In this document: positions 477 through 27,148 of the stretch, in pieces
How the letters are laid out: every line of letters begins with the position of its first letter
Numbering within the stretch: position 1 is the stretch's first letter
DNA from: Pelodictyon luteolum DSM 273
Lineage (GTDB): Bacteria; Bacteroidota; Chlorobiia; Chlorobiales; Chlorobiaceae
Direction: 5' to 3'
Assembly: GCF_000012485.1 (NCBI RefSeq)
Contig: NC_007512.1
Coordinates: forward strand, 807,001-871,000
Length of the DNA: 64,000 bases
Made by a program: the position numbers and the translations under genes
The notes under the pieces: model-generated
The model's input: only the letters and a program-made list of their open reading frames with translations
What the model was told of the DNA's origin: nothing
The model's database searches: none

Positions 477-1082
477 ATGAATAATTATCCTGATACCGTT
501 ATGACGCCGCCTACACCAGAGGCCGCGAAAATTGCGGAAATTCAGTTCGCTTATGAGTGCGCTGAGGAGATCAATGATTCCTGCCGCAACCTTTTTGAAG
601 CCATCCGGAATTCACTCGACCAGCTGAAAGAGAAGCGGACGGCTGCCAATGAGAGTCTTTGCGATGTGCTGGCCAAAAAGGGTTCCCTGAGGAAAAAAGA
701 TTATGAAAGAATGATGGACGAGATCCATGCAATTCTTGACGAAAAGGAACAGGATGCCCGCGATGAGCTCTCGTCATTTCTCCGCGACCAGAGGGAGTTT
801 GCCTTGATGCTCAAAGACCTCATCATCAATGCGATTGATTTTTCATCCCCTGATCTCGCCCGCAGAAGCAGGCAGCTGAGGGAAGAGCTTGCAGCGATCG
901 CATCGGGACAGGAAGAGAGGAAGGCGGCTGTGGTGAAACGGCTGACTGATTTTCAGTCGGCACACTCCAAAATTGTTGCCCATCTGGAATCTCTTCTGCA
1001 TAAAAGGGAAGGAATAGGGGCTAAAGATATAAAGGACGTAAAGCATCTTGTCGATCGTGAATGGGGAATCAAATCAAATTAA
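477..1082 (+). CDS. Coiled-coil protein of the gas-vesicle cluster, function unknown
   Basis: This 201-residue, charged, almost entirely helical protein has no signal peptide or membrane segment. Heptad-like stretches rich in E, K, R and L run from about residue 20 to 180. I do not recognise a family. Its position between gvpA and the GvpC-like gene, on the same strand and 18 bases before the next gene, ties it to gas vesicles, perhaps as a shell-binding or assembly protein. The start at 477 has little ribosome-site support, and the ATG at residue 9 is an alternative. Confidence 0.7.
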   Translation: MNNYPDTVMTPPTPEAAKIAEIQFAYECAEEINDSCRNLFEAIRNSLDQLKEKRTAANESLCDVLAKKGSLRKKDYERMMDEIHAILDEKEQDARDELSSFLRDQREFALMLKDLIINAIDFSSPDLARRSRQLREELAAIASGQEERKAAVVKRLTDFQSAHSKIVAHLESLLHKREGIGAKDIKDVKHLVDREWGIKSN

Positions 1083-1100
1083 GAAGGGAGGATTCTAACA

Positions 1101-2264
1101 ATGGCATCAAAACAGGACATGAATACTATGCGAGAAGAAGCAATGAATTCGTTCAGGCGTCGTGACAAGGCCAACAGGGACCTTGTTGAAGAGGTCAACG
1201 CCATGATTCACCGGTTCCGCGAGGAGCACCGTGAGATGGCTGCGCGGCTGGCGTCGAACGCCGAACGCCTGCATGCATCCCTTTCAGTGGACGAGCAGGA
1301 CCGGATGAAAGACTACAGTGCGATGATGGGCAACATCCAGAAGGAACTGCATGCAGTCAGGGATACCGTCAGCTCATACCGCACGGAGGCTGCCTCCATG
1401 ATGCAGGGCTTTGCCGGCGATCGCTCGGCGATGAGCACGGAGCTGCATGCCATGCTCGACGATGCCACAGCATCGCGCATGGACAGTGAGCAGATTCGTC
1501 TCGGGGAGTTCGGCGAGATGATGGCCGGCATCAGGGAGTATAACAAAAGCCTGCAGATGGATGTGGTGGACATCTTCGCTTCAACCAATGCCATGCTCGA
1601 GCGCTTTGCCGGTGAGCACGAGCAGATGGCCGAGGAACTGAAGGACGGTCTTGAGAAGACGAGGCATGAGGGCTCCGAGTACACCAAAGAGCTGCTTGCC
1701 GGAATCCGGAAGCGGATGCTTGAAATCAGCAATGAGAACCTTGAGGCCGCCGAAGCGGTGCGGAAGGGGCTGGCCGGCAGCGAAGCTGTCAGGATGGATG
1801 AGTACAACAGCCTGTTCAGCAGGATTTCTTCCGAAGTCGAGGCGCTGAGGCAGTCGACATCTGCCATGCTGAAGCGATTCTCTGAAGAAAGGGCTGCGGA
1901 TTCGGCAGGATGGCCTGAACTTGAGGGTGTTGCAGTCTCCCCTCAGGAAGAGGTGGCTGCGGTTGCAGAGGTATTCCAGGATGCAGCTCCTCTGCAGGAA
2001 CCCGCCCCGGTTGCTGAACCTGAAGCCGCTGTCAACGAGGAACCCGAAGTGCAGGAAGAGGCAGTAGTGGCTCAGGTGGCCGGCGACAGCCTTGAAGAGA
2101 GGGTCCTGGCTTACATCAACTCCAGTACGGAAGGCGTACGGGTGTCGGACATGGAAAAGCCCCTTGGTGAAACGAGGATGAAGATCGGCGTTGCCGCCCG
2201 GAACCTCCTCGATGAGGGGAAGGTGTCAAAGGTCGAGAACTTCTACCATCCGCTTGGCCACTGA
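1101..2264 (+). CDS. Repeat-containing GvpC-like protein with C-terminal winged-helix-like domain
   Basis: This 387-residue helical protein contains repeats. An AM(I/L)xRF(x)xEHxxMAxxL-type motif starts near residues 34, 99, 164 and 255, and an RM(x)(D/E)Y-type motif near 68, 132 and 230, giving a period of about 65 residues. GvpC proteins are repeat-built helical proteins that bind the outside of the vesicle and stiffen it, so a GvpC-like role is likely but rests on architecture and context. An acidic Ala/Pro/Glu linker (about 272-330) leads to a compact tail (331-387) resembling a winged-helix domain, which is unusual for GvpC. The gene has a good GGGAGG ribosome site. Confidence 0.65.
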   Translation: MASKQDMNTMREEAMNSFRRRDKANRDLVEEVNAMIHRFREEHREMAARLASNAERLHASLSVDEQDRMKDYSAMMGNIQKELHAVRDTVSSYRTEAASMMQGFAGDRSAMSTELHAMLDDATASRMDSEQIRLGEFGEMMAGIREYNKSLQMDVVDIFASTNAMLERFAGEHEQMAEELKDGLEKTRHEGSEYTKELLAGIRKRMLEISNENLEAAEAVRKGLAGSEAVRMDEYNSLFSRISSEVEALRQSTSAMLKRFSEERAADSAGWPELEGVAVSPQEEVAAVAEVFQDAAPLQEPAPVAEPEAAVNEEPEVQEEAVVAQVAGDSLEERVLAYINSSTEGVRVSDMEKPLGETRMKIGVAARNLLDEGKVSKVENFYHPLGH

Positions 2265-2344
2265 CTTGTCGAAACTCCACCGGGCCGGCTGGCCGTTAAG
2301 CCGCTGCCGGCCCGTAACCCGGAACAAACCCTAACCAGCTGATT

Positions 2345-3271
2345 ATGCGTGCTGCAGTGAATGACAATGAAATGAATACGGTACTGGCACCACGGCCGAT
2401 GGCGAATTTCGTGGAAACCGAGTACATCCGGGACATCACCGAGCGTGGACTTACCTACCTGAAGGCCGGCTTCCCTGTCCATTTCCGGGGCCCCTCGGGT
2501 ACCGGCAAGACAACGGTCGCCATGCACCTTGCCGGCAAGATCGGACGACCCGTCGTGGTCATCCACGGAGACTCCGAATACAAGACCTCCGACCTCATCG
2601 GAAGCGAGCAGGGATACAAGTTCAGGCGCCTGAACGACAACTTCATCCATTCAGTCCATAAGTATGAAGAGGACATGAGCAAGCAGTGGGTGAACAACCG
2701 GCTGTCGATTGCCATCAAGAAGGGCTTCACCCTGGTCTACGATGAATTCACCCGTTCGCGTCCCGAGGCCAACAACATCCTTCTGCCGATTCTGCAGGAG
2801 AAGATGCTGAGCACATCAGCCTCGAATGAAGAGGACTACTACATGAAGGTCCACCCTGAGTTCAGGGCGATATTTACCTCGAACCCCGAGGAATATGCCG
2901 GCGTCAACAGGACACAGGATGCTCTGCGCGACCGGATGGTGACCATGGACCTGGATTATTTCGATTATGAGACCGAGCTGCGGGTGACGCACGCTAAGTC
3001 GGAACTGACGCTCGAGGATTCAGAGAAAATCGTGCAGGTCGTAAGGGGACTTCGCGAATCCGGCAAAACCGAGTTTGACCCGACCGTCCGCGGTTCGATC
3101 ATGATAGCACGGACGCTGCATATCATGCAGGTCAGGCCCGAAAAAACGAACGATGCCGTCAGGAAGGTGTTCCAGGACATCCTGACATCGGAAACCAGCA
3201 GGGTGGGATCGAAGACCAACCAGGAAAAGGTCCGCGCCATCGTCAACGACCTGATCGAAGCATATCTGTAA
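2345..3271 (+). CDS. gvpN: GvpN, MoxR-type AAA+ ATPase for gas-vesicle assembly
   Basis: This 308-residue protein has a Walker A motif GPSGTGKT (residues 49-56), a Walker B region around LVYDEFTRSRPE, and further AAA+ motifs including the conserved FTSNPEEYAG stretch (sensor 1 region). GvpN belongs to the MoxR/CbbQ ATPase branch, and in other organisms it is needed for normal vesicle growth, with GvpC as a functional partner. It lies 80 bases after the GvpC-like gene, matching the usual gvpC-gvpN order. Other ATGs at residues 10 and 19 make the exact start uncertain. Confidence 0.95.
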   Translation: MRAAVNDNEMNTVLAPRPMANFVETEYIRDITERGLTYLKAGFPVHFRGPSGTGKTTVAMHLAGKIGRPVVVIHGDSEYKTSDLIGSEQGYKFRRLNDNFIHSVHKYEEDMSKQWVNNRLSIAIKKGFTLVYDEFTRSRPEANNILLPILQEKMLSTSASNEEDYYMKVHPEFRAIFTSNPEEYAGVNRTQDALRDRMVTMDLDYFDYETELRVTHAKSELTLEDSEKIVQVVRGLRESGKTEFDPTVRGSIMIARTLHIMQVRPEKTNDAVRKVFQDILTSETSRVGSKTNQEKVRAIVNDLIEAYL

Positions 3272-3308
3272 CAGCGCAGCGCACACTATCAATCACGGGG
3301 GAAAAGCC

Positions 3309-3626
3309 ATGGCAGAAAGGAACAGCATGCTCAAGGGCATCAACGACATCAAGACCGTCCACACCATCAAGAAGGCGGCTGCCCGGCAGAAGGGGAGCAA
3401 CGACTTTCTTCGCCTGTACATGCTTGAAATGGAGCGGACCCGTCTCATCAGCGAAAAGAACAAGCTGATTCAGCGTCTTGAGGTCATCGACGGACGGCTC
3501 AGTGCCATCCAGGAGGTCTATGCCGAAAGTCTCGAGGGGTTCGAGGCATTCCGCTCCTATAATGGAAACCGCTATGTGGATGATGTCACGGTTCCGGGAT
3601 TCAAGACCATGCCCTTCGATTACTAA
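3309..3626 (+). CDS. Small helical protein of the gas-vesicle cluster, function unknown
   Basis: This 105-residue basic protein has a central coiled coil (about residues 35-70, with regular L, I and E/K spacing) and a Gly/Asp/Pro-rich tail. I cannot place it in a named Gvp family. It lies between gvpN and a GvpA/J-type gene in the same direction with short gaps, so it is probably co-transcribed and takes part in vesicle assembly. Its ribosome site is good (GGGGGAAA before the ATG). Confidence 0.7.
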   Translation: MAERNSMLKGINDIKTVHTIKKAAARQKGSNDFLRLYMLEMERTRLISEKNKLIQRLEVIDGRLSAIQEVYAESLEGFEAFRSYNGNRYVDDVTVPGFKTMPFDY

Positions 3627-3647
3627 ATACCAACATCTCAATCAACA

Positions 3648-3941
3648 ATGCCTGAACTCAAACATGCGGTCAATGCTACCGGTCTTGCCGATATCCTCGA
3701 AAGGGTTCTCGACAAAGGCATTGTCATAGCGGGAGACATCAAGATACAGATCGCCGATATCGATCTGTTGACCATCAAGATCCGGCTGATGGTCGCCTCG
3801 GTCGATAAGGCCATCGAAATGGGCATCAACTGGTGGCAGGAAGATCCTTACCTGTCAACCGGTGCAAAAACATCCGAACAGACACGGCTTCTGGGCGAAA
3901 TAAACCAGCGGATCGAAAAGCTGGAATCAATCAACAGATAA
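3648..3941 (+). CDS. gvpJ: GvpA/GvpJ-family minor gas-vesicle protein
   Basis: This 97-residue protein carries the GvpA-type core (LADILERVLDKGIVIAGDIK and the following strand and helix) plus a hydrophilic C-terminal extension of about 35 residues that GvpA lacks. That layout fits the GvpJ/GvpM/GvpS group, minor proteins thought to act at the nucleating cone tip. Assignment to J rather than M or S is not certain from sequence alone. It is followed 18 bases later by the Hsp20-like gene. Confidence 0.85.
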   Translation: MPELKHAVNATGLADILERVLDKGIVIAGDIKIQIADIDLLTIKIRLMVASVDKAIEMGINWWQEDPYLSTGAKTSEQTRLLGEINQRIEKLESINR

Positions 3942-3959
3942 GTCAAAACAGGGGTGAGG

Positions 3960-4511
3960 ATGGATAGGGATAGGGAGAGGGAAAAAAGGGAAAACGAAGA
4001 GTCTGATTTCGACCTGTCGGGACTTGGTGCTCTCGGTCAGGGCCTTGGCGGGTTGTTCAAGGGGATAGAGCGGCTGGTTGATCTTGCCTCCAAACTTGAA
4101 TCTTCAGGCGGCACCTCAGGCAGCGGGGAAGTGAACCTTGAGCATCTCAGGAAGGGCATGAAGGGTGTGTACGGATTCACCATCAAATCGGCCGGCGGTG
4201 GCGGCGGTTCACCGAAAGTCGAGACGTTCGGCAACATCCGCAAAAGCGCGGAAGGACCCAAAGTTGATGAAGAGCGTGAACCCATCACCGACCTGTTCGA
4301 TGAAGATGATCGTATTGTGGTGATTGTGGAGATGCCGGGCTTGGAGGCTGAAGACATCATTCTCGACCTGAATGGTGACATCCTCTCCATCACTACGAAG
4401 GGGAGCGGAAAACGGTACAGGAAAGAACTGCTGCTGCCGATGGCGGTTGCAGGACAGGAGCTGCAACGGAAGTATACGAACGGGATACTCGAGATCACCA
4501 TAAGCAAATGA
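3960..4511 (+). CDS. Hsp20-like (GvpH-type) protein of the gas-vesicle cluster
   Basis: The C-terminal part (about residues 100-183) has an alpha-crystallin/Hsp20 fold pattern: a DDRIVVIVEMPG strand, an LEAEDIILDLNGDILSI segment and the final NGILEITISK strand. The N-terminal part is Gly/Ser-rich and disordered. Hsp20-like GvpH proteins occur in haloarchaeal gas-vesicle clusters, so a chaperone role is plausible. The ATG at 3960 has AGGGG five bases upstream and is preferred; a GTG at 3954 would add two residues. The last four bases (ATGA) overlap the next gene, implying translational coupling. Confidence 0.85.
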   Translation: MDRDREREKRENEESDFDLSGLGALGQGLGGLFKGIERLVDLASKLESSGGTSGSGEVNLEHLRKGMKGVYGFTIKSAGGGGGSPKVETFGNIRKSAEGPKVDEEREPITDLFDEDDRIVVIVEMPGLEAEDIILDLNGDILSITTKGSGKRYRKELLLPMAVAGQELQRKYTNGILEITISK

Positions 4512-5452
4512 CCTCCATGCCGTTGAGTGGTCTGGACCGTAAAACACTGGAAATGGTGATTTTCGGGGGCAAGGGGGGCGTCGGCAAGACCAGCTGTGCG
4601 CTTGCAGCCGCCCTGTGGCTGTCGGAGCGCTACCGGACCATCGTCATTTCAACCGATCCCGCCCATTCGCTCGGCGACAGCCTTGGCCAGCCGGTCGGCC
4701 CGATACCCGTTGAAGTTGCCGGGGCTCCGGGGCTGGCCGCTCTCGAAGTTTCAGCAGATCAGGCGTTCCGGAAGTTCAAGAAGGATCATGAAGCCGAGCT
4801 CGTGAAGCTGTTTGAGACCTCTTCGGAACTTGATGCTGAAGACATCCGGGAGATGATGAGCCTGTCGATACCCGGCATCGATGAAATGATGAGCCTGAAG
4901 GCCGTCATCGACCTGGTCTCGGAGGGGGCGTATGAGCGGTATGTCGTCGATACTGCTCCCACCGGTCACGCCCTCCGCCTCATCAGCTCTCCTGAACTGC
5001 TTGACGGATGGGTCAGGATGGCTTCGAAAATGAGGTGGAAATACCGCTATATGGTGGAGTCTTTTTCCGGCGGCTATACCGCTGACGAGGCGGACAACAT
5101 GCTGCTGGACCTGAAAAGGACGGTCAAGCGGATTGAAGCCCTCCTGTCCAGTTCCGCCCGGTGTGAGTTTATTCCCGTATGCATCCCCGAAGACATGGCC
5201 GTCAGGGAGACGGCCAGGCTCCTCAGCGAACTTGCCGAACACCGGATATCGGCACGCCAGCTCGTCATGAACAACGTCATGGAGCCGGATGGCTCCGAAT
5301 TCTGCCGCAGGCGAAGGCAGTCCCAGGATAGGTATCTGGCCCTTACCGGCGAGCTGTTTCCGGGAATCCCGGTGACCGTGGTGCCGCAGTTCCCCGAGGA
5401 AATCAGGGGTCTCGATGGCCTGAAGAAACTGAAGAACGCCCTTTTTACCTAA
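4508..5452 (+). CDS. ArsA/Get3-like P-loop ATPase
   Basis: This 314-residue protein begins with a deviant Walker A motif GGKGGVGKTS (about residues 19-28) and the STDPAHSLGDSLG switch region, both typical of ArsA/Get3/TRC40 ATPases. It is a single-domain type, like Get3, not a fused double ArsA. Arsenic genes are absent nearby, and it overlaps the Hsp20-like gene by four bases, so a gas-vesicle role is likelier than arsenite export. Get3 proteins shield hydrophobic helices; a role with GvpA-type subunits is inference. Confidence 0.9.
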   Translation: MTSMPLSGLDRKTLEMVIFGGKGGVGKTSCALAAALWLSERYRTIVISTDPAHSLGDSLGQPVGPIPVEVAGAPGLAALEVSADQAFRKFKKDHEAELVKLFETSSELDAEDIREMMSLSIPGIDEMMSLKAVIDLVSEGAYERYVVDTAPTGHALRLISSPELLDGWVRMASKMRWKYRYMVESFSGGYTADEADNMLLDLKRTVKRIEALLSSSARCEFIPVCIPEDMAVRETARLLSELAEHRISARQLVMNNVMEPDGSEFCRRRRQSQDRYLALTGELFPGIPVTVVPQFPEEIRGLDGLKKLKNALFT

Positions 5453-5475
5453 CGTTCGCAATGATATGCTGAAAG

Positions 5476-7632
5476 ATGAGCCAGATCGAACGGATCTTCA
5501 AAGTCAAGGAATCTCTGCTCAAGGACGTCGGACGCGCCATAGCGCGAATCGACCCGAAAGATATGGCTGAGGCCGGAATCGGCGTCGGAGACATCGTGCT
5601 TGCTGAAGGAAAACGTGCCACGCCGGTAAAGGTGCTGCCCTGCTACCCCGAGGACAGGGGCAAGGGCATCATCCAGATCGACGGGATTACGCGGGAGAAC
5701 GCCCAGACGGGCATCGATGAAAAGGTCAAGGTTACGGCGATTGCTTCGAAGAAGGCGGCAAAGGTCGTGCTCAAGCCGGTCGACGGCGGTGCGTCCTCGA
5801 TACGCGGAGATGATGCGAAGTACATCGGCTCCCTTATCAGCGGCCTTCCCGTCATGAAGGGTGACAGGGTGAAGGCCACGCTTTTCGGCTCCCGCTCAGT
5901 CCATTATACGGTGAACGCCACCGCGCCCGCCGGCGTTGTTTTGATCCATCCCGATACCTCGATAGCACTGGAGCTCCCCAAAAAGAGCGAAGGCGGCGTG
6001 AACCTCGTAACCTATGAAGACATAGGCGGGCTCGGCACCCAGGTACAGCGGATCAGGGAAATGATAGAGCTTCCGCTCAAGTACCCGGAAATCTTCGACC
6101 GCCTTGGCGTTGAGCCGCCGAAGGGGGTGTTCCTTTACGGCCCCCCCGGCACCGGCAAGACCCTTATTGTCAGGGCTGTGGCAAGGGAGACCGATGCGTA
6201 TTTCATCAATATTTCCGGCCCGGAAATAATGGGGAAATTCTACGGGGAAAGCGAAGCCAGGATCCGCAACATCTTTGCCGAGGCCGAGGCCCATGCCCCG
6301 TCGATCATCTTCATCGACGAGATCGACGCCATTGCGCCCCGCCGTGAGGACATGGGGGGCGAGAAGCAGGTCGAAAAGCGTGTCGTCGCCCAGCTCCTTT
6401 CCCTGATGGACGGCCTCAAGTCCCGCGGCAAGGTCATCGTCATCGGCGCTACCAACATTCCCAATGCAATCGATCCGGCACTTCGCCGCCCGGGTCGTTT
6501 TGATCGTGAAATCAGCGTGTCCGTCCCGGACCGCAACGGCCGGCTGGAAATCATCCATATCCATACACGGGGAATCCCCCTCAGCGACGATGTCGATCTT
6601 GGGCGGATTGCCGACATCACGCACGGATTCGTCGGTGCAGACCTGGAAGCCCTTGCCCGCGAAGCCGCCATGACGGCCTTGCGCCGGATACTGCCGAAAA
6701 TCGATTTCGAGCTTTCCGAAATTCCCTATGAGCTCTTGACGCAGCTTGAGGTGACGATGGAGAACTTCCTTGATGCGATGAAAGAGGTCGAGCCGTCGGC
6801 AATCAGGGAGTTTTTCGTCGAAGTGCCCAATGTCCGCTGGGAGGATGTCGGCGGCCATGAAGAGGTCAAGCAGGCGCTGAGGGAAGCTGTCGAGTGGCCG
6901 GTCAGGTATCGGGAACTGTTCCGCAAGACCGGTACAATTCCTCCGAAAGGTGTCATCCTGTACGGTAAGCCGGGGACGGGCAAGACATGGCTTGCCAAGG
7001 CCCTTGCGACCGAGAGCGGGGTCAACTTCATTTCCGTCAAAGGGCCCGAGATCATCAGCCGTTTCATCGGGGAATCTGAAAAGGCGGTCCGGGAGCTGTT
7101 CCGGCTGGCAAAGCAGTCAGCCCCGACCATAATCTTTCTTGACGAGATCGACAGCCTCGCTCCGGCCAGGGGGGCGGGGGGATCGGAATCGAGCGTCACC
7201 CAGCGTGTCATCAGCCAGTTTTTGACTGAAATGGATGGCATCGAAGAGCTGAAAGGAGTATTCGTGCTCGCGGCGACCAACCGTATCGACCTGCTTGACC
7301 CGGCCCTGATCCGCCCGGGGCGTTTCGATCTTCTCTACGAGGTGCCGCCGCCTGATGTCCTGGCGCGTGTGAGGATTTTCGAGATCCATACGAAATCGAT
7401 GACCCTGGATGATGACGTCAGCATCAGTGCGCTTGCCGAAAGTACGGAGGGGATGAGCGGGGCCGACATAGAGTTCATCTGCCGAAAGGCCAGTATGGGG
7501 GCCATCAGCGCCTGCATCGCCCTGGAGGCCGGGGGCATCGATCCCCTGCATGTGGAGCTGAGGGTCAGGGACAGTCATTTCCAGGAGGCTGTGCGGCTCT
7601 TGTCCTCCCGTTACAGGGACAATGGAGAATAA
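5476..7632 (+). CDS. CDC48/VCP-like ATPase with two AAA domains
   Basis: This 718-residue protein has the CDC48/VAT layout: an N-terminal double-psi-barrel region (about 1-180), AAA domain D1 with GPPGTGKT near 222 and Walker B FIDEID near 280, and D2 with GKPGTGKT near 493 and FLDEIDSLAP near 555. Both arginine-finger regions (RRPGRFD, IRPGRFD) are present. CDC48 proteins unfold or remodel protein complexes. It is 24 bases after the ArsA-like gene and 22 bases before the GvpF/L-J fusion gene, so it probably remodels Gvp assemblies. Confidence 0.93.
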   Translation: MSQIERIFKVKESLLKDVGRAIARIDPKDMAEAGIGVGDIVLAEGKRATPVKVLPCYPEDRGKGIIQIDGITRENAQTGIDEKVKVTAIASKKAAKVVLKPVDGGASSIRGDDAKYIGSLISGLPVMKGDRVKATLFGSRSVHYTVNATAPAGVVLIHPDTSIALELPKKSEGGVNLVTYEDIGGLGTQVQRIREMIELPLKYPEIFDRLGVEPPKGVFLYGPPGTGKTLIVRAVARETDAYFINISGPEIMGKFYGESEARIRNIFAEAEAHAPSIIFIDEIDAIAPRREDMGGEKQVEKRVVAQLLSLMDGLKSRGKVIVIGATNIPNAIDPALRRPGRFDREISVSVPDRNGRLEIIHIHTRGIPLSDDVDLGRIADITHGFVGADLEALAREAAMTALRRILPKIDFELSEIPYELLTQLEVTMENFLDAMKEVEPSAIREFFVEVPNVRWEDVGGHEEVKQALREAVEWPVRYRELFRKTGTIPPKGVILYGKPGTGKTWLAKALATESGVNFISVKGPEIISRFIGESEKAVRELFRLAKQSAPTIIFLDEIDSLAPARGAGGSESSVTQRVISQFLTEMDGIEELKGVFVLAATNRIDLLDPALIRPGRFDLLYEVPPPDVLARVRIFEIHTKSMTLDDDVSISALAESTEGMSGADIEFICRKASMGAISACIALEAGGIDPLHVELRVRDSHFQEAVRLLSSRYRDNGE

Positions 7633-7653
7633 CGATAACCTTCAACCGAACGT

Positions 7654-8685
7654 ATGAATCAGAGCATATACATCTACGGCATCGTAAACGAACCCGCTTT
7701 GGCGGCATCATTCGTCGAAACAGACCCTGACATCTACGCCGTTGCCTCGATGGGCTGTTCGGCCATCGTCGAAAACCGGCCTGCCATCGATCTGGGTGAA
7801 CTTGACCGTGAGTCACTCGCCCGGATGCTGCTTCAGCACCAGCAGACCCTCGAGCGGCTTATGGAAAGCGGCATGCAGCTTATTCCGCTCAAACTCGGAA
7901 CGTTCGTTTCCTCAGCAGCAGATGCGGCGTGCATCATTGAGGACGGCTACAACCTGATCGAGCGCATATTCCGGGAAACGGAAGATGCGCATGAACTCGA
8001 AGTGGTCGTGAAATGGAGCAGTTTTGCCGATCTCCTGCAGGAGGTGGTTTCAGAGGGCGACGTGCAGGAACTCAAACGCGAGGTCGAGGCCCGTCAATCC
8101 TCCTCCACTGAAGATGCCATCGCTGTCGGCAGGTTGATCAAGGAAAAGATCGATCGGCGCAATGCAGCCCTCAGTGCCTCGGTACTCAGGCAGCTCGGTG
8201 AGCGGGCATCACAATCGAAGCGGCACGAAACAATGGACGACGAAATGGTCCTCAACGCTGCATTCCTCGTCAACCGCGGCGACGTCGATGCATTTGTCGC
8301 GACCGTTGAAGCCCTGGACAGCCAGTACCTGAACGCCCTGCATTTCAGGATCGTCGGTCCCCTGCCATGTTACAGCTTCTATACTCTTGAAGTCACAGCG
8401 CTTTTTGAAGAGTTCATTGCTGAGAAACGAGCCGTGCTGGGTCTTGATGCCCGGTCCTGTGAGGCAGATGTCAAAAAGGCCTATCATGCCAAAGCGAAGG
8501 TGGCGCATCCGGACGTACATGTGCCTGCAGGGGCGAATAATGGTGCTGATTTTACGGTCCTCAACGAGGCATATATGACACTGCACGACTATTATAGCGC
8601 GCTCAGGAATTCGGCGTCCTCACGCCATGGCCATGAAGGGCAGGATTCCAGTAGTGTGGTTTTTTCAGTTAAAATACTCAATTGA
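7654..8685 (+). CDS. GvpF/L-family protein fused to a C-terminal J domain
   Basis: Residues 1 to about 250 form a GvpF/GvpL domain, with the opening IYIYGIV, the central LIPLKLGTFV and the VLNAAFLVNR segment. Residues about 258-318 resemble a DnaJ domain: a first helix, a KKAYHAKAKVAHPD helix with the catalytic HPD at about 285-287, and a closing NEAYMTLHDYY helix. J domains stimulate DnaK-type Hsp70s, so this subunit may recruit Hsp70 to the assembling vesicle. The fusion is read through with no frame break. It is the first of five GvpF/L genes and overlaps the next. Confidence 0.88.
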   Translation: MNQSIYIYGIVNEPALAASFVETDPDIYAVASMGCSAIVENRPAIDLGELDRESLARMLLQHQQTLERLMESGMQLIPLKLGTFVSSAADAACIIEDGYNLIERIFRETEDAHELEVVVKWSSFADLLQEVVSEGDVQELKREVEARQSSSTEDAIAVGRLIKEKIDRRNAALSASVLRQLGERASQSKRHETMDDEMVLNAAFLVNRGDVDAFVATVEALDSQYLNALHFRIVGPLPCYSFYTLEVTALFEEFIAEKRAVLGLDARSCEADVKKAYHAKAKVAHPDVHVPAGANNGADFTVLNEAYMTLHDYYSALRNSASSRHGHEGQDSSSVVFSVKILN

Positions 8686-23008: not shown

Positions 23009-23063
23009 TTGTTTAAAATGGTGCTTCAGTCAGTGAATGGGGCACAAAAAGGAGGTAATTTTA

Positions 23064-24638
23064 ATGGGAATTGTCATAAACCTGTTTTTGATCATTTTTG
23101 CTTCGGTTGTGTTTTTTGCGGCAGGTTTTTTCCTCGGGCGTTTCTTCCTCGAGCGTCTCGGTACGACGAAGGTCCTCGAAGCTGAAGAGCGTGCGGTGCA
23201 GATCGTGCAGGAGGCCCAGAAGGAGGCAAACGAGTACAAAGAGCTGAAGGTCACCGAAGTCAATCAGGAGTGGAAGAAAAAGCGCCGGGAGTTCGATCAG
23301 GAGGTGGTGATCAAGAACAATAAGTTCAACCAGCTCCAGAAGCAGGTGCAGCAGCGTGAAGCGCAGCTGAAGAAGCAGTTGCAGGATGTCCGCGACACCG
23401 AGCGCAAGCTGCAGGACCAGCAGAAGGAACTCGACCAGGCGATGGAGACCGTCGGCATCCGTGCGACTGAACTCGAACGCATCATCACCGAGCAGAACCA
23501 GCGCCTTGAGAGCATCAGCAACCTGCAGGCAGATGAGGCCCGCCAGATGCTCGTCGACAACATGATTACCAAGGCCCGCGAAGAGGCTACCGAGACCATC
23601 CACAAGATCCACGAGGAGGCTGAGGAAAATGCCGGCCGCCTGGCTGAGAAGACCCTTCTTACCGCCATCCAGCGCATCTCCTTCGAGCAGGCAACTGAAA
23701 ACGCCCTTTCCGTGGTGCACATCCAGAGCGACGAACTCAAGGGCCGCATCATCGGCCGTGAGGGGCGCAACATCAAGGCGTTCGAGAATGCCACCGGCGT
23801 GGACATCATCGTTGACGACACCCCCGAGGTGGTCATCCTTTCCTGCTTCGACCCGCTTCGCCGCGAGCATGCCAAACTCACCCTGAAGAAGCTGCTTGCC
23901 GACGGGGTCATCCATCCGGTGGCCATCGAGAAGGCTTATCTGGATGCAGGCAAGGAGATGGCTGATGTCATCATGAGTGCCGGCGAAGAGGCGCTTGCCT
24001 CTCTCCAGATCCCCGACATGCCGGCAGAAATCGTCAGGCTCATCGGTACCATGAAGTTCCATAGCGTGTACGGCCAGAACCTTCTGCAGCACAGCCGTGA
24101 AGTGGCCATGCTTGCCGGCATCATGGCGACCGAGCTCAAGCTTGATCCGCGCCTGGCGAAGCGGGCGGGCCTGCTGCACGACATCGGCCTCGTGCTTCCC
24201 GACACCGACCAGCCGCACGCCCTTGCCGCCAGCGAATTCCTGCGCAAGTTCAAGGAGTCCGCTGTCGTACTCAACGCCATTGCCGCCCACCACGGCGAGG
24301 CTGAAAAGGAGTCTCCCATCGCCGAACTGGTCGATGCCGCCAACGTGATTTCACTGGCACGGCCCGGAGCGCGCGGCGCCGTCACTGCAGACGGCAACGT
24401 CAAACGCCTGGAAAGCCTTGAAGAGATTGCCAAGGGGTTCCCCGGCGTACTCAAGACCTATGCCCTGCAGGCAGGCCGTGAGATCCGCGTCATCGTAGAG
24501 GGTGATAATGTGAGCGACTCGCAGGCCGACGTGCTTGCGCATGACATCGCCCACAAGATCGAATCGGAAGCCCAGTACCCCGGACAGATCAAGGTATCGA
24601 TCGTCAGGGAGCGCCGCTCCGTCGCCTACGCCAAGTAA
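23064..24638 (+). CDS. rny: Ribonuclease Y
   Basis: From the ATG at 23064 (GGAGG eight bases before it) the protein has 524 residues: an N-terminal TM (about 4-25), a long coiled coil (to about 200), a KH domain with GRIIGREGRNIKAFE, and an HD domain with HSREVAMLAG and LLHDIGLV, where HD are metal ligands. RNase Y is a membrane-anchored endonuclease that starts mRNA decay. An ATG nine codons upstream is open but has no ribosome site. Confidence 0.96.
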   Translation: MGIVINLFLIIFASVVFFAAGFFLGRFFLERLGTTKVLEAEERAVQIVQEAQKEANEYKELKVTEVNQEWKKKRREFDQEVVIKNNKFNQLQKQVQQREAQLKKQLQDVRDTERKLQDQQKELDQAMETVGIRATELERIITEQNQRLESISNLQADEARQMLVDNMITKAREEATETIHKIHEEAEENAGRLAEKTLLTAIQRISFEQATENALSVVHIQSDELKGRIIGREGRNIKAFENATGVDIIVDDTPEVVILSCFDPLRREHAKLTLKKLLADGVIHPVAIEKAYLDAGKEMADVIMSAGEEALASLQIPDMPAEIVRLIGTMKFHSVYGQNLLQHSREVAMLAGIMATELKLDPRLAKRAGLLHDIGLVLPDTDQPHALAASEFLRKFKESAVVLNAIAAHHGEAEKESPIAELVDAANVISLARPGARGAVTADGNVKRLESLEEIAKGFPGVLKTYALQAGREIRVIVEGDNVSDSQADVLAHDIAHKIESEAQYPGQIKVSIVRERRSVAYAK

Positions 24639-24726: not shown

Positions 24727-24762
24727 TGCCCTTGTCGCGTTCATGAGCTTGATGTGCATAGA

Positions 24763-24915
24763 GCAGGGTTGCCGGTAAGTCCGGCCGTGAGGCGATTGCT
24801 ACAGCACCCCTTTGGTAGAGGGGATGCCGCCACCCTCGATACAAACGGCGTCTTTCATCGCCAGTGCGAACGCCTTGAACATGGCTTCGATCATGTGGTG
24901 CGTGTTGTGGCCGTC
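24763..24915. repeat. Left copy of a 153-bp direct repeat (hisB 3' end)
   Basis: These 153 bases match 26510-26662 with only two differences. They cover the last 39 or so codons of hisB and about 36 bases beyond its stop. The two copies are in the same orientation and flank the AbiE gene pair, so the segment between them (about 1.6 kb) looks inserted. Confidence 0.92.
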
Positions 24916-24987
24916 ATGGCCGTCATGGCCGTCATGGCTCTCATGACCCTCAAGCAAGGCGATCTGGATGTGCTGGCCTGCAGCCAT
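24799..24987 (-). pseudogene. hisB 3' remnant
   Basis: Read on the minus strand this gives a C-terminal HisB fragment ending [18 protein letters not shown] and STKGVL, the same as the intact hisB end. Beyond the 153-bp repeat it diverges: [11 protein letters not shown] replaces the [11 protein letters not shown] of hisB, followed by an extra [12 protein letters not shown] stretch made by a 9-base repeat. There is no upstream dehydratase domain, so it cannot be functional. It marks the left edge of the AbiE insertion. Confidence 0.85.
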
Positions 24988-25160
24988 GAGTAATACGGCA
25001 GGCGCATTGCCGCCAGCCGATAGCCGGTGAAAGCAGAAAGGGCAGGTGATAGGGATCCGCGCACATGGACGAAAGCCCGGGCAATGGGACCTTCAATGGG
25101 GGAATGGTTTGTGTTTGTTTAGACCTAACTGATTTATTTACATGTTGTTTTGGTATGCAA

Positions 25161-25180
25161 TATGTCGTAAAATGACAATA
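25161..25180 (+). promoter_or_regulatory. Possible AbiEi autoregulatory operator
   Basis: An imperfect inverted repeat (TATGTCGTAAAATGACAATA) ends at the first base of the AbiEi ATG. AbiEi proteins of known systems bind inverted repeats in their own promoter and repress the operon. No experimental support here, and the repeat is short. Confidence 0.35.
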
Positions 25181-25596
25181 TGAAAAGCTTTCGAACAACA
25201 CTACTCTCCCAAGTTCGCTCGCGCATTGATCGCAAGCGCAATGCTGTCGTGCTGCGTCAGGACTTTCGGGATCTCGGCCAGTACGATCAGGTTGGCCGCT
25301 GCTTGCTTCGTCTCGTCAAAGAGGGGCGGCTTATCAAAATAGGTCAAGGGATTTATGTCCGCGCTGCTGTATCGCCGCTTGATGAACAGCCAGCCCTTCC
25401 CAAAAGCCTCAATAGTCTGGCCGTTGAGGCGATGCAAAAAATGGGCATCCCCACAGGTCCTACGGCAGCGGAACGCGATTACAACGAGGGCAAAAGCACG
25501 CAAGTTCCAACGGGACGCACTATCGGCGTTTGCAAGCGTGTTCGTCGCCACATTGGATACAACGGGTACACGATGAAGTTTGAGCATGTCACGTAA
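25180..25596 (+). CDS. AbiEi-like antitoxin / transcriptional regulator (DUF6088 type)
   Basis: This 138-residue basic protein resembles the DUF6088 AbiEi group: an N-terminal winged-helix region (to about residue 55, including LLRLVKEGRLIKIGQGIYVRA) and a C-terminal part ending GYTMKFEHVT. AbiEi is the antitoxin and repressor of type IV AbiE systems. The next gene overlaps its end by 11 bases, the standard arrangement. Base composition is more AT-rich than the surroundings, consistent with transfer. Confidence 0.85.
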   Translation: MKSFRTTLLSQVRSRIDRKRNAVVLRQDFRDLGQYDQVGRCLLRLVKEGRLIKIGQGIYVRAAVSPLDEQPALPKSLNSLAVEAMQKMGIPTGPTAAERDYNEGKSTQVPTGRTIGVCKRVRRHIGYNGYTMKFEHVT

Positions 25597-26485
25597 TCAA
25601 CTGCTGCCAAAAAAATCAGCCATTGAGCGTGCTGCCGGCCTACTCGTCACGACTGATGAAGCCTTCATTGAAAAAGATTGGCATGTCGTTCGAGCGCTTC
25701 GATTGCTGAATGGCCTGCAAAGTCCAGGATTGCAGCTGGCTTTTGGTGGGGGGACATCATTGGCCAAAGCAGGTCTGATCAAGCGGTTTTCCGAGGATGT
25801 GGATTTCAAAGCCACAATACAACCGGCAGGGCGCACACAGTATCGAGCAACGCGTAAAACAATAATTGAGACTCTGCTCGATGAAGGATTTTCGCTTCTC
25901 GCGGAACCAATGGTGCGCGATGAGAGTAGATTTTTTTCGTTGGAACTTGATTATGGGGCAACATTCTCGACCAGCCGTCGCTTACGAAAACACATCCGGG
26001 TAGAGGTTCGCTTTGTCCCGCCCAAAATACCCGTTGTGTTTCAACCGGTTCAATCTCTTCTGGGGCTTACTGAACAACAGCCCGCCGAAATCGGCTCAAT
26101 GCCGTATGTCCATCCGGTCGAAATAGCTGCCGATAAACTCAGTGCGCTATCATGGAGGCTGCTTGATGACGATGAAAGCCAGGATAAAACCCTCATACGG
26201 CATGTTCATGACATGGCGGCACTGGAACCCATGATTACTTCGAACGGGGCATTTCAAAACCTTGTTCGACAAGCCATGACGGATGATTTGAATCGCAGTC
26301 ATATTCCTTTAGTGCAACGGCTTCGTCGGGTTATGACAGCGCTCAAGACAGCTGTTTGGAAAAAAGCCTATCAATCGTTCGTGCAGGATATGTCATTCGC
26401 TCGTGAGGATGAAATCATTGCTTACGAAACGGCACTGAATGCCTGTGAGCGATTGATTGATCTGGTTGAGCGCAAACGGACATAA
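25586..26485 (+). CDS. AbiEii-type nucleotidyltransferase toxin
   Basis: The protein of about 299 residues has the AbiEii/MenT nucleotidyltransferase signature FGGGTSLAKAGLIKRFSEDVDFK (parts GGTSLAK and SEDVD), where the acidic pair binds metal and the Lys and Ser help bind nucleotide. Known AbiEii proteins block growth; several transfer nucleotides to tRNA. The target here is unknown. The ATG at 25586 lies within the end of abiEi; a TTG at 25580 is an alternative. The pair probably acts as a type IV toxin-antitoxin or phage-abortive system. Confidence 0.88.
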   Translation: MSRNQLLPKKSAIERAAGLLVTTDEAFIEKDWHVVRALRLLNGLQSPGLQLAFGGGTSLAKAGLIKRFSEDVDFKATIQPAGRTQYRATRKTIIETLLDEGFSLLAEPMVRDESRFFSLELDYGATFSTSRRLRKHIRVEVRFVPPKIPVVFQPVQSLLGLTEQQPAEIGSMPYVHPVEIAADKLSALSWRLLDDDESQDKTLIRHVHDMAALEPMITSNGAFQNLVRQAMTDDLNRSHIPLVQRLRRVMTALKTAVWKKAYQSFVQDMSFAREDEIIAYETALNACERLIDLVERKRT

Positions 26486-26509
26486 AAACTCTCTGAGCTG
26501 TAATGCTCA

Positions 26510-26662
26510 GCAGGGTTGCCGCTAAGTCCGGCCGTGAGGCGATTGCTATAGCACCCCTTTGGTAGAGGGGATGCCGCCACCCTCGATACAAACGGCGTCT
26601 TTCATCGCCAGTGCGAACGCCTTGAACATGGCTTCGATCATGTGGTGCGTGTTGTGGCCGTC
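26510..26662. repeat. Right copy of the 153-bp direct repeat (hisB 3' end)
   Basis: This copy matches 24763-24915 with two mismatches and is part of the intact hisB gene plus its downstream flank. Homology ends abruptly on both sides. Confidence 0.92.
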
Positions 26663-27148
26663 GAGGACTGCAATGTGGATGTTGGCCTTCAGGCCCGAGG
26701 CGATCGAGGTGAAAAAATGCCCGACCATTTCAGTAGACATGCCCTGGATGACAGGGCGACCGAATTCAGCCTTGACGACAGCGAAGCTGCGTCCTCCGAG
26801 GTCGACTGCCGCACGGGCGAGCGATTCGTCCATCGGCACCAGTGCCGAACCAAAGCGCCTTATGCCTGCACGCGAACCCAGAGCCTGCAGGATGGCGCTG
26901 CCGATAACGATGGCGACATCTTCCACCGAGTGGTGGTCGTCCACCTCAAGGTCTCCCTTGCAGATGACGGCAAGGTCGATGCGGGAGTGGCGGCTGAAGG
27001 AGGTAAGCATGTGGTCTAGAAACCCGACGCCGGTCTGGATGGAGCTCGTGCCGGTACCATCAAGAGAGAGGGTTGCGCTGATGTCTGTCTCGCTTGTTTT
27101 TCTCGTCACGGTGGCCTGTCTGGGGGCGCTGGTGGATGCTTCGGGCAT
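26546..27148 (-). CDS. hisB: Imidazoleglycerol-phosphate dehydratase
   Basis: This 200-residue enzyme performs the sixth step of histidine synthesis. It has the manganese-binding [15 protein letters not shown] and [15 protein letters not shown] segments in the first half and the mirrored TSIASGL and [13 protein letters not shown] segments in the second. It is monofunctional, without the phosphatase domain of enteric HisB. It starts eight bases after the DUF2905 gene. Its 3' end is duplicated about 1.7 kb away, but the gene is intact. Confidence 0.96.

Follow-up and report, generated by a model that had tools for sequence, protein, structure and literature searches.

A probable long target duplication, persistent and gene-converted, around an AbiE module at the 3' end of hisB in Pelodictyon luteolum

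How does a toxin-antitoxin module come to lie between two copies of the end of hisB, with one hisB gene still whole and no integrase between the copies, and what keeps it there? The question is raised by a stretch of 64,000 nucleotides, hereafter the window, which covers positions 807001-871000 of the single-contig, 2,364,842-bp genome of Pelodictyon luteolum DSM 273. A first-pass annotation of this sequence had offered two origins, an element that enters the 3' end of a gene and rebuilds it with its own copy, or recombination with the hisB locus of a related strain, and had read the near-identity of the copies as the sign of a recent event. The reading that we favour with moderate confidence, and which takes entry, homogenisation and maintenance by addiction together, is that the repeats go back to a long duplication of the target around an AbiE addiction module, and that this duplication has persisted and undergone gene conversion.

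The repeats at hisB and the module between them

A direct-repeat search of the 22-30 kb region of the window found a single long direct-repeat family, consisting of two 154-nt copies (24762-24915 and 26509-26662) that are spaced by 1747 and mismatched at two of 154 positions. The chance expectation for a 154-bp pair is E = 2e-72, and across the 64-kb window no other pair of 60 bp or more has its copies separated by a gap of 500-3000. As the first-pass annotation had stated, each copy holds the final 39 codons of hisB, here with the stop codon (left 24799-24915, right 26546-26662), and flank; its count of two mismatches also holds, and its length of 153 bp is one short. The right copy is contained in a complete hisB and the left copy is a fragment. 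The features of the locus, in window coordinates, are as follows.

23037-24638, plus strand: rny-like gene from the open reading frame (ORF) list, which we take from its sequence to be rny (RNase Y); the left flanking host gene, convergent with hisB
24762-24915: left copy, a non-functional 154-bp duplicate of the 3' end of hisB with its flank (direct-repeat search and mismatch count)
24916-25028: continuation of the left copy without match to native hisB; it opens with a tandem of 9 bp and then reads as weakly hisB-like
25029-26464, plus strand: module core common to Chlorobium sp. N1, where the site is unrelated (sequence comparison; ends approximate)
25180-25596, plus strand: abiEi antitoxin of the DUF6088 type, 138 aa (PF19570, E 6.7e-8; PADLOC AbiEi, E 2e-44)
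25580-26485, plus strand: abiEii nucleotidyltransferase toxin, 301 aa, TTG start (PF08843, E 5.9e-25; PADLOC AbiEii, E 9.8e-79)
26509-26662: right copy, where the complete hisB ends (3' end plus flank; direct-repeat search)
26546-27148, minus strand: complete hisB, imidazoleglycerol-phosphate dehydratase, 200 aa (PF00475, E 3.4e-61)

The abiEi and abiEii reading frames overlap and, judged by sequence, would make up a type IV toxin-antitoxin pair of the AbiE kind. AbiEii scores 89 bits against PF08843 (cut-off 22.5) and 262.9 bits in PADLOC; AbiEi lies above the cut-off for DUF6088 and below that for Pfam AbiEi_4 (21.6 versus 25 bits). The overlapping pair with its family-level matches is thus typical of AbiE systems, from which it differs in its short, 138-aa AbiEi of the DUF6088 type. 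Neither the ORF list nor Pfam nor PADLOC recognised any other gene between the repeats, and the absence of an integrase, already remarked in the first-pass annotation, is borne out for both integrases and recombinases by the ORF list and Pfam, no remaining ORF being long enough to encode one. The same annotation had called the pair AT-rich; the pair is intact, and its AT-richness is mild. In 500-base windows the GC content is 48-53% in the module, 58-63% to the left and 60% just to the right, and since it is again 50-55% from 27000 on, composition does not set the module apart. AbiE is described as able to stabilise plasmids (PMC3985639) and, jointly with a second system, an integrative and conjugative element (ICE; PMC11062541).

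Past 24915 the left copy departs from native hisB, first through the 9-bp tandem and then through sequence that is either diverged or foreign, a feature absent from the first-pass annotation. The unit of the tandem, at 24916-24945, is ggccgtcat.

Empty sites, a second luteolum genome and the same module at kfrA

We detected hisB in 78 of 86 Chlorobiaceae genomes, and a second, partial copy in two of the 78, this genome and that of Pelodictyon luteolum isolate CIII (G025). Besides this genome, 77 have hisB; among the 29 best matches to them, rny and hisB share a locus in 28, and the gap between them is roughly 30-340 bases, without insertion, in 27 of the 29 loci, the exceptions being isolate CIII and one locus from another genus (L017). 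This comparison, which the first-pass annotation had proposed, yields the empty site. The view that insertion took place at the 3' end of hisB and left the gene whole, as the complete 200-aa hisB on the right, is upheld. In L017 the gap holds, at about 2100-3090, a 116-bp tandem repeat and an ORF, which presumably resembles a REP-associated tyrosine transposase.

Isolate CIII carries the same two copies around the same AbiE module, on a contig that starts some 50 bases ahead of the left copy, with rny outside its sequence. Between DSM 273 and CIII the longer segments, namely both copies, the left outer piece, the module and the remainder of hisB, are 95.5-98.4% identical; a pair of short flanking pieces agree at 39 of 42 and 23 of 23 positions, and the stretch at 24916-25028 is kept at 97.3%. 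A related strain with the same two copies at normal divergence was what the first-pass annotation had named as counting against its account, and CIII largely provides it. We have accordingly dropped the idea of a young event, given this shared layout with its ordinary divergence and the evidence for gene conversion that follows.

The two copies differ at two of 154 positions within DSM 273 and at four of 154 within CIII, and orthologous copies differ at seven. Compared crosswise, the pairs show five and nine differences, the left copy of DSM 273 being closer to the right copy of CIII (five) than either copy is to its ortholog. Ten columns of the 154 vary: those at 24832, 24838, 24843 and 24844 are the same within each genome and different between genomes, the remaining six are single differences, and no column groups the copies by position. 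The simplest reading of these alignments is that gene conversion between the copies occurred after the two luteolum lineages split; the four homogenised columns span 13 bases and may represent one event, and this, like the close crosswise pair, is a point against our account. The states in DSM 273 include an Arg-to-Cys change close to the C-terminus of HisB, and as Arg is also found at this site in Chlorobium sp. N1, it is probably ancestral. Agreement within each genome at the four sites suggests that gene conversion, and not youth, lies behind much of the near-identity of the copies, and this, with the conservation of 24916-25028 in both genomes, would make the duplication older than the near-identity implies.

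Chlorobium sp. N1 (G029) has the next closest hisB (83%), and its hisB-rny site is uninterrupted. An AbiEii that is 95% identical is encoded elsewhere in that genome, beside a CRISPR-like array, in a module bracketed by a kfrA-like gene (PF11740, E 6.2e-18), which is whole on the right and of which a second 3' end lies on the left. Over the 1.1 kb from 25200 to 26299, 100-base windows of the two module cores are 98-100% identical, and the end windows 62-83%, a profile that points to recent exchange of the module centre. An unfilled kfrA site is present on the same contig of N1, and outside kfrA the left copy is nearly identical to it; within kfrA that copy represents a diverged allele, into which 24 bp have been inserted. 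That one module is bracketed by hisB in one genome and kfrA in another indicates that the duplicated DNA belongs to the target, without a fixed attachment (att) site. At 2796-8004 of the N1 locus (L064), kfrA and the CRISPR-like repeats occur twice, once filled and once unfilled, which could reflect a genuine tandem duplication or be produced by assembly where the contig ends.

The left copies, by the module, thus differ from the native gene at both hisB and kfrA, so that a fragment of a gene end may have been present on the DNA before it came in. This is the core of the strongest alternative, in which donor DNA that already had abiE beside the 3' part of a foreign hisB was integrated by a Campbell-type event or a double crossover, and the repeats are donor and recipient alleles that were later homogenised. 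The first-pass suggestion of recombination with a related hisB allele is plausible in this sense, and we regard the alternative as a real contender, if on the whole rather doubtful. It would account for 24916-25028 being unlike native hisB and, by eye, weakly hisB-like, and for a left end in N1 that is a diverged kfrA allele with an insertion although the adjoining DNA resembles the unfilled site. However, a hisB profile search over 24916-25028 gave an alignment confined to the 38 C-terminal residues, which falls short of establishing a foreign hisB, and the scheme leaves unexplained how the module was first joined to hisB and kfrA fragments in the donors.

Entry and persistence of the module

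Under our preferred reading, a persistent target duplication around an addiction module, an ancestor of the two C. luteolum genomes would have acquired the AbiE module in the short interval at the 3' end of hisB, through recombination that placed some 150-250 bp of target DNA on each side. One copy would complete hisB and the other stay a fragment, with later exchange between them by gene conversion. As to the joining itself, incoming DNA probably recombined through homology at one end, and a plausible route to such joints is homologous capture of this one-sided kind while DNA is being taken up. A crossover between the copies ought to remove the module and bring back the empty site; AbiE, through addiction, would select against such deletants, and this presumed penalty may be why the bracket persists between repeats that can recombine. 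Whether chromosomal toxin-antitoxin systems are true addiction modules is a matter of long-running dispute. A module set between direct repeats of 100-300 bp comes with a built-in deletion assay, in which it should vanish if it exacts no penalty.

Insertion with long target duplication has been described for restriction-modification systems (Nobusato et al., 2000; Furuta et al., 2010, via PMC3874152). As outlined there, those insertions are alike in involving no known mobile element, in the long and variable duplications (of the order of 100 bp) and in the differing targets; here too host DNA is doubled that is single in relatives, and the repeat differs between two sites of one module. What differs is the cargo, which is AbiE (and, less strongly, type II toxin-antitoxin modules), and the age of the duplication, which is old enough for gene conversion. 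The class of long target duplications is extended here to AbiE, and probably to other toxin-antitoxin modules. Among the matches listed from the open-licence literature, in the portions available, neither AbiE nor any other toxin-antitoxin module was reported with a long target duplication, which is weak evidence that no such report exists; one account of a mycoplasma toxin-antitoxin region mentions two direct repeats (PMC8562856). Incoming DNA can also give rise to chromosomal duplications in transformation-induced merodiploids, one of which, of 107.4 kb, was unstable (PMC3784515), but those duplications are mostly far larger (one is 3.3 kb) and the description, as far as it was available, includes no toxin-antitoxin module. 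The spread of qacC between rolling-circle plasmids is similar in being mobility without insertion sequences and in leaving a truncated copy beside an intact one; the portion of the account at hand explains it by plasmid replication origins (PMC5037232).

Direct repeats around other modules

The frequency of such brackets was scored strictly as direct repeats of at least 60 bp and at least 80% identity, with a gap of at most 3 kb, on either side of the matched gene, and was compared with random placement of the match within the same loci.

AbiE, close Chlorobiaceae: 9 of 30 bracketed, 2.93 expected, 0 of 2000 simulations as high
AbiE, other Chlorobiaceae: 9 of 40, 2.95 expected, p 0.001
AbiE, outside Chlorobiaceae: 4 of 60, 1.09 expected, p 0.0125
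AbiE, wider Bacteroidota sample: 2 of 26, 1.48 expected, p 0.49 (no excess)
ParE: 5 of 43, 2.42 expected, p 0.054
DNA methyltransferases: 1 of 25, 0.55 expected, p 0.51
Acetyltransferases (GNAT): 0 of 46
hisB: 0 of 21

The excess of brackets is clear for Chlorobiaceae AbiE, modest outside the family, borderline for ParE, and not seen in either the phylum or the methyltransferase set. In the standard-flank sets the counts cover loci of at least 3100 bases (ParE 43 of 50, methyltransferases 25 of 30, GNAT 46 of 50, hisB 21 of 27, phylum AbiE 26 of 30), a cut that removed three loci of bracketed appearance (L190, L259 and L270); in these sets, and in the second ParE and GNAT batches, match positions were derived from flank length and not row by row. 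The loci from GTDB genomes overlap the close Chlorobiaceae set, and the 60 outside Chlorobiaceae exclude this overlap. The 70 Chlorobiaceae rows represent 67 distinct loci, as L304, L305 and L310 duplicate L059, L060 and L055, none of them bracketed. Brackets surround 18 of the 67, or 15 when cases of a dispersed repeat are discounted, and with those cases scored as unbracketed the comparison with the two control families, GNAT and hisB (0 of 67), gives p 2.5e-5 by Fisher's test. The pairs L033/L034 and L046/L047 are each counted as one insertion, and with these and the dispersed cases taken out the count is 13 of 65 (p 5e-5), in statistics that ignore shared ancestry.

Looser scoring gave, for a first batch with pairs read by eye, 10 of 30 for AbiE, 3 of 30 for ParE, 2 of 30 for methyltransferases, 0 of 30 for GNAT and 0 of 27 for hisB; for a second batch, 10 of 41 matches (40 loci) for AbiE, 3 of 20 for ParE and 0 of 20 for GNAT; and for the phylum AbiE sample, about 6 of 30, again by eye. 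Also under looser scoring, 15 of 75 were bracketed versus 1 of 44 shifted controls. Bracketed AbiE modules farther afield include one at the 3' end of an integrase gene in an alphaproteobacterial metagenome-assembled genome (L074; 124 bp, 100%) and others in Asaia (L077, 81%) and Runella (L094, 75%). When one repeat copy was taken from each of 35 bracketed loci, the copies fell into 30 unrelated sequence families. Among 20 brackets checked for ORFs, targets hit at the 3' end include hisB, kfrA, an integrase gene, an EcoEI_R gene, an aminotransferase gene and a NifH-like gene; one target, an HTH gene, is hit at its 5' end, and several targets have no ORF.

Could the brackets be an ordinary by-product of the repeat-rich, hypervariable islands that house AbiE, ParE and restriction genes? 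Among 80 AbiE loci from GTDB genomes, 13 have bracketing pairs, and 11 have a total of 17 further pairs that do not bracket, so that repeat-rich surroundings do account for part of the signal. Four brackets (L263, L271, L299 and L306, three of them in the Chlorobiaceae count) stem from a common dispersed repeat and were rejected as target duplications, and three of the sets (phylum, ParE, methyltransferases) fail to rise clearly above random placement. As a general explanation we nevertheless think it unlikely, since the two Chlorobiaceae AbiE sets are bracketed about three times as often as random intervals in the same loci, the hisB-rny site is a conserved core site, and 1.2 Mb of background (60 stretches from three genomes, those of G034 all from one contig) contained only nine comparable pairs.

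A site-specific integrative element with the hisB 3' end as its attachment site, the first origin proposed in the first-pass annotation, would suit the gene 3' end, the whole gene and the direct repeats, but is so improbable that we set it aside, because an integrase is missing, the same module is flanked in N1 by a different gene, the kfrA-like one, so that no attachment site is constant, and other AbiE modules sit at a 5' end or in intergenic DNA. Integrative elements that restore gene 3' ends do exist, among them SGI1-like elements at trmE and dusA, and share the gene 3' end and the direct repeats with this locus, which differs from them in having neither a recombinase nor a fixed target; 154 bp is also long for an att core.

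The bracketing of many AbiE modules, and of some type II toxin-antitoxin and restriction-modification modules, in unrelated targets suggests a common history of addiction modules. A bolder proposal, which we offer only tentatively and think less likely to be right than wrong, is that long brackets are a fossil record of addiction: one-sided entrants would generally be deleted through their repeats, those modules that punish deletants would stay, and the bracketing frequency of a family would measure its addictive strength. If bracketing should prove general to addiction modules, it would provide a readout of addiction from sequence alone and show how such modules settle without integrases or transposases.

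Of the other brackets, those near the sampled loci were picked by eye from loci centred on toxins or methyltransferases, and the list of their contents therefore gives no rate. They enclose a PIN gene with FitA, SmaI-type and EcoO109I-type systems, ParDE, a second AbiE and a DUF559 gene. The content scans of the background pairs, which covered those other than L359, L366 and L407, found a YoeB toxin (PF06769, E 1.8e-19) within two pairs in L369, a ParE toxin (E 2.4e-5) in L389 of G034, a DUF4143 protein in L409, and in L399 a repeat within one ORF. The YoeB gene in L369 (2140001-2160000 of this genome) lies at 4906-6322 between direct repeats of 189 and 111 bp with 92-93% identity. In L319, at 3671-6236, a D12 methyltransferase and a NotI-type enzyme lie between 277-bp repeats (93%), apparently within another methyltransferase gene, as judged by a motif only. 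A PIN/FitA pair lies between repeats of 79 to 83 bp (89-90%) both in this genome (L272) and in G028 (L296). The second AbiE of DSM 273 (L271, 592000-606000 of the genome) lies at 3214-7629 between 855-bp repeats that are 99.9% identical and is followed by a partial AbiEii copy, an arrangement that appears to be a tandem rearrangement and not a simple target duplication.
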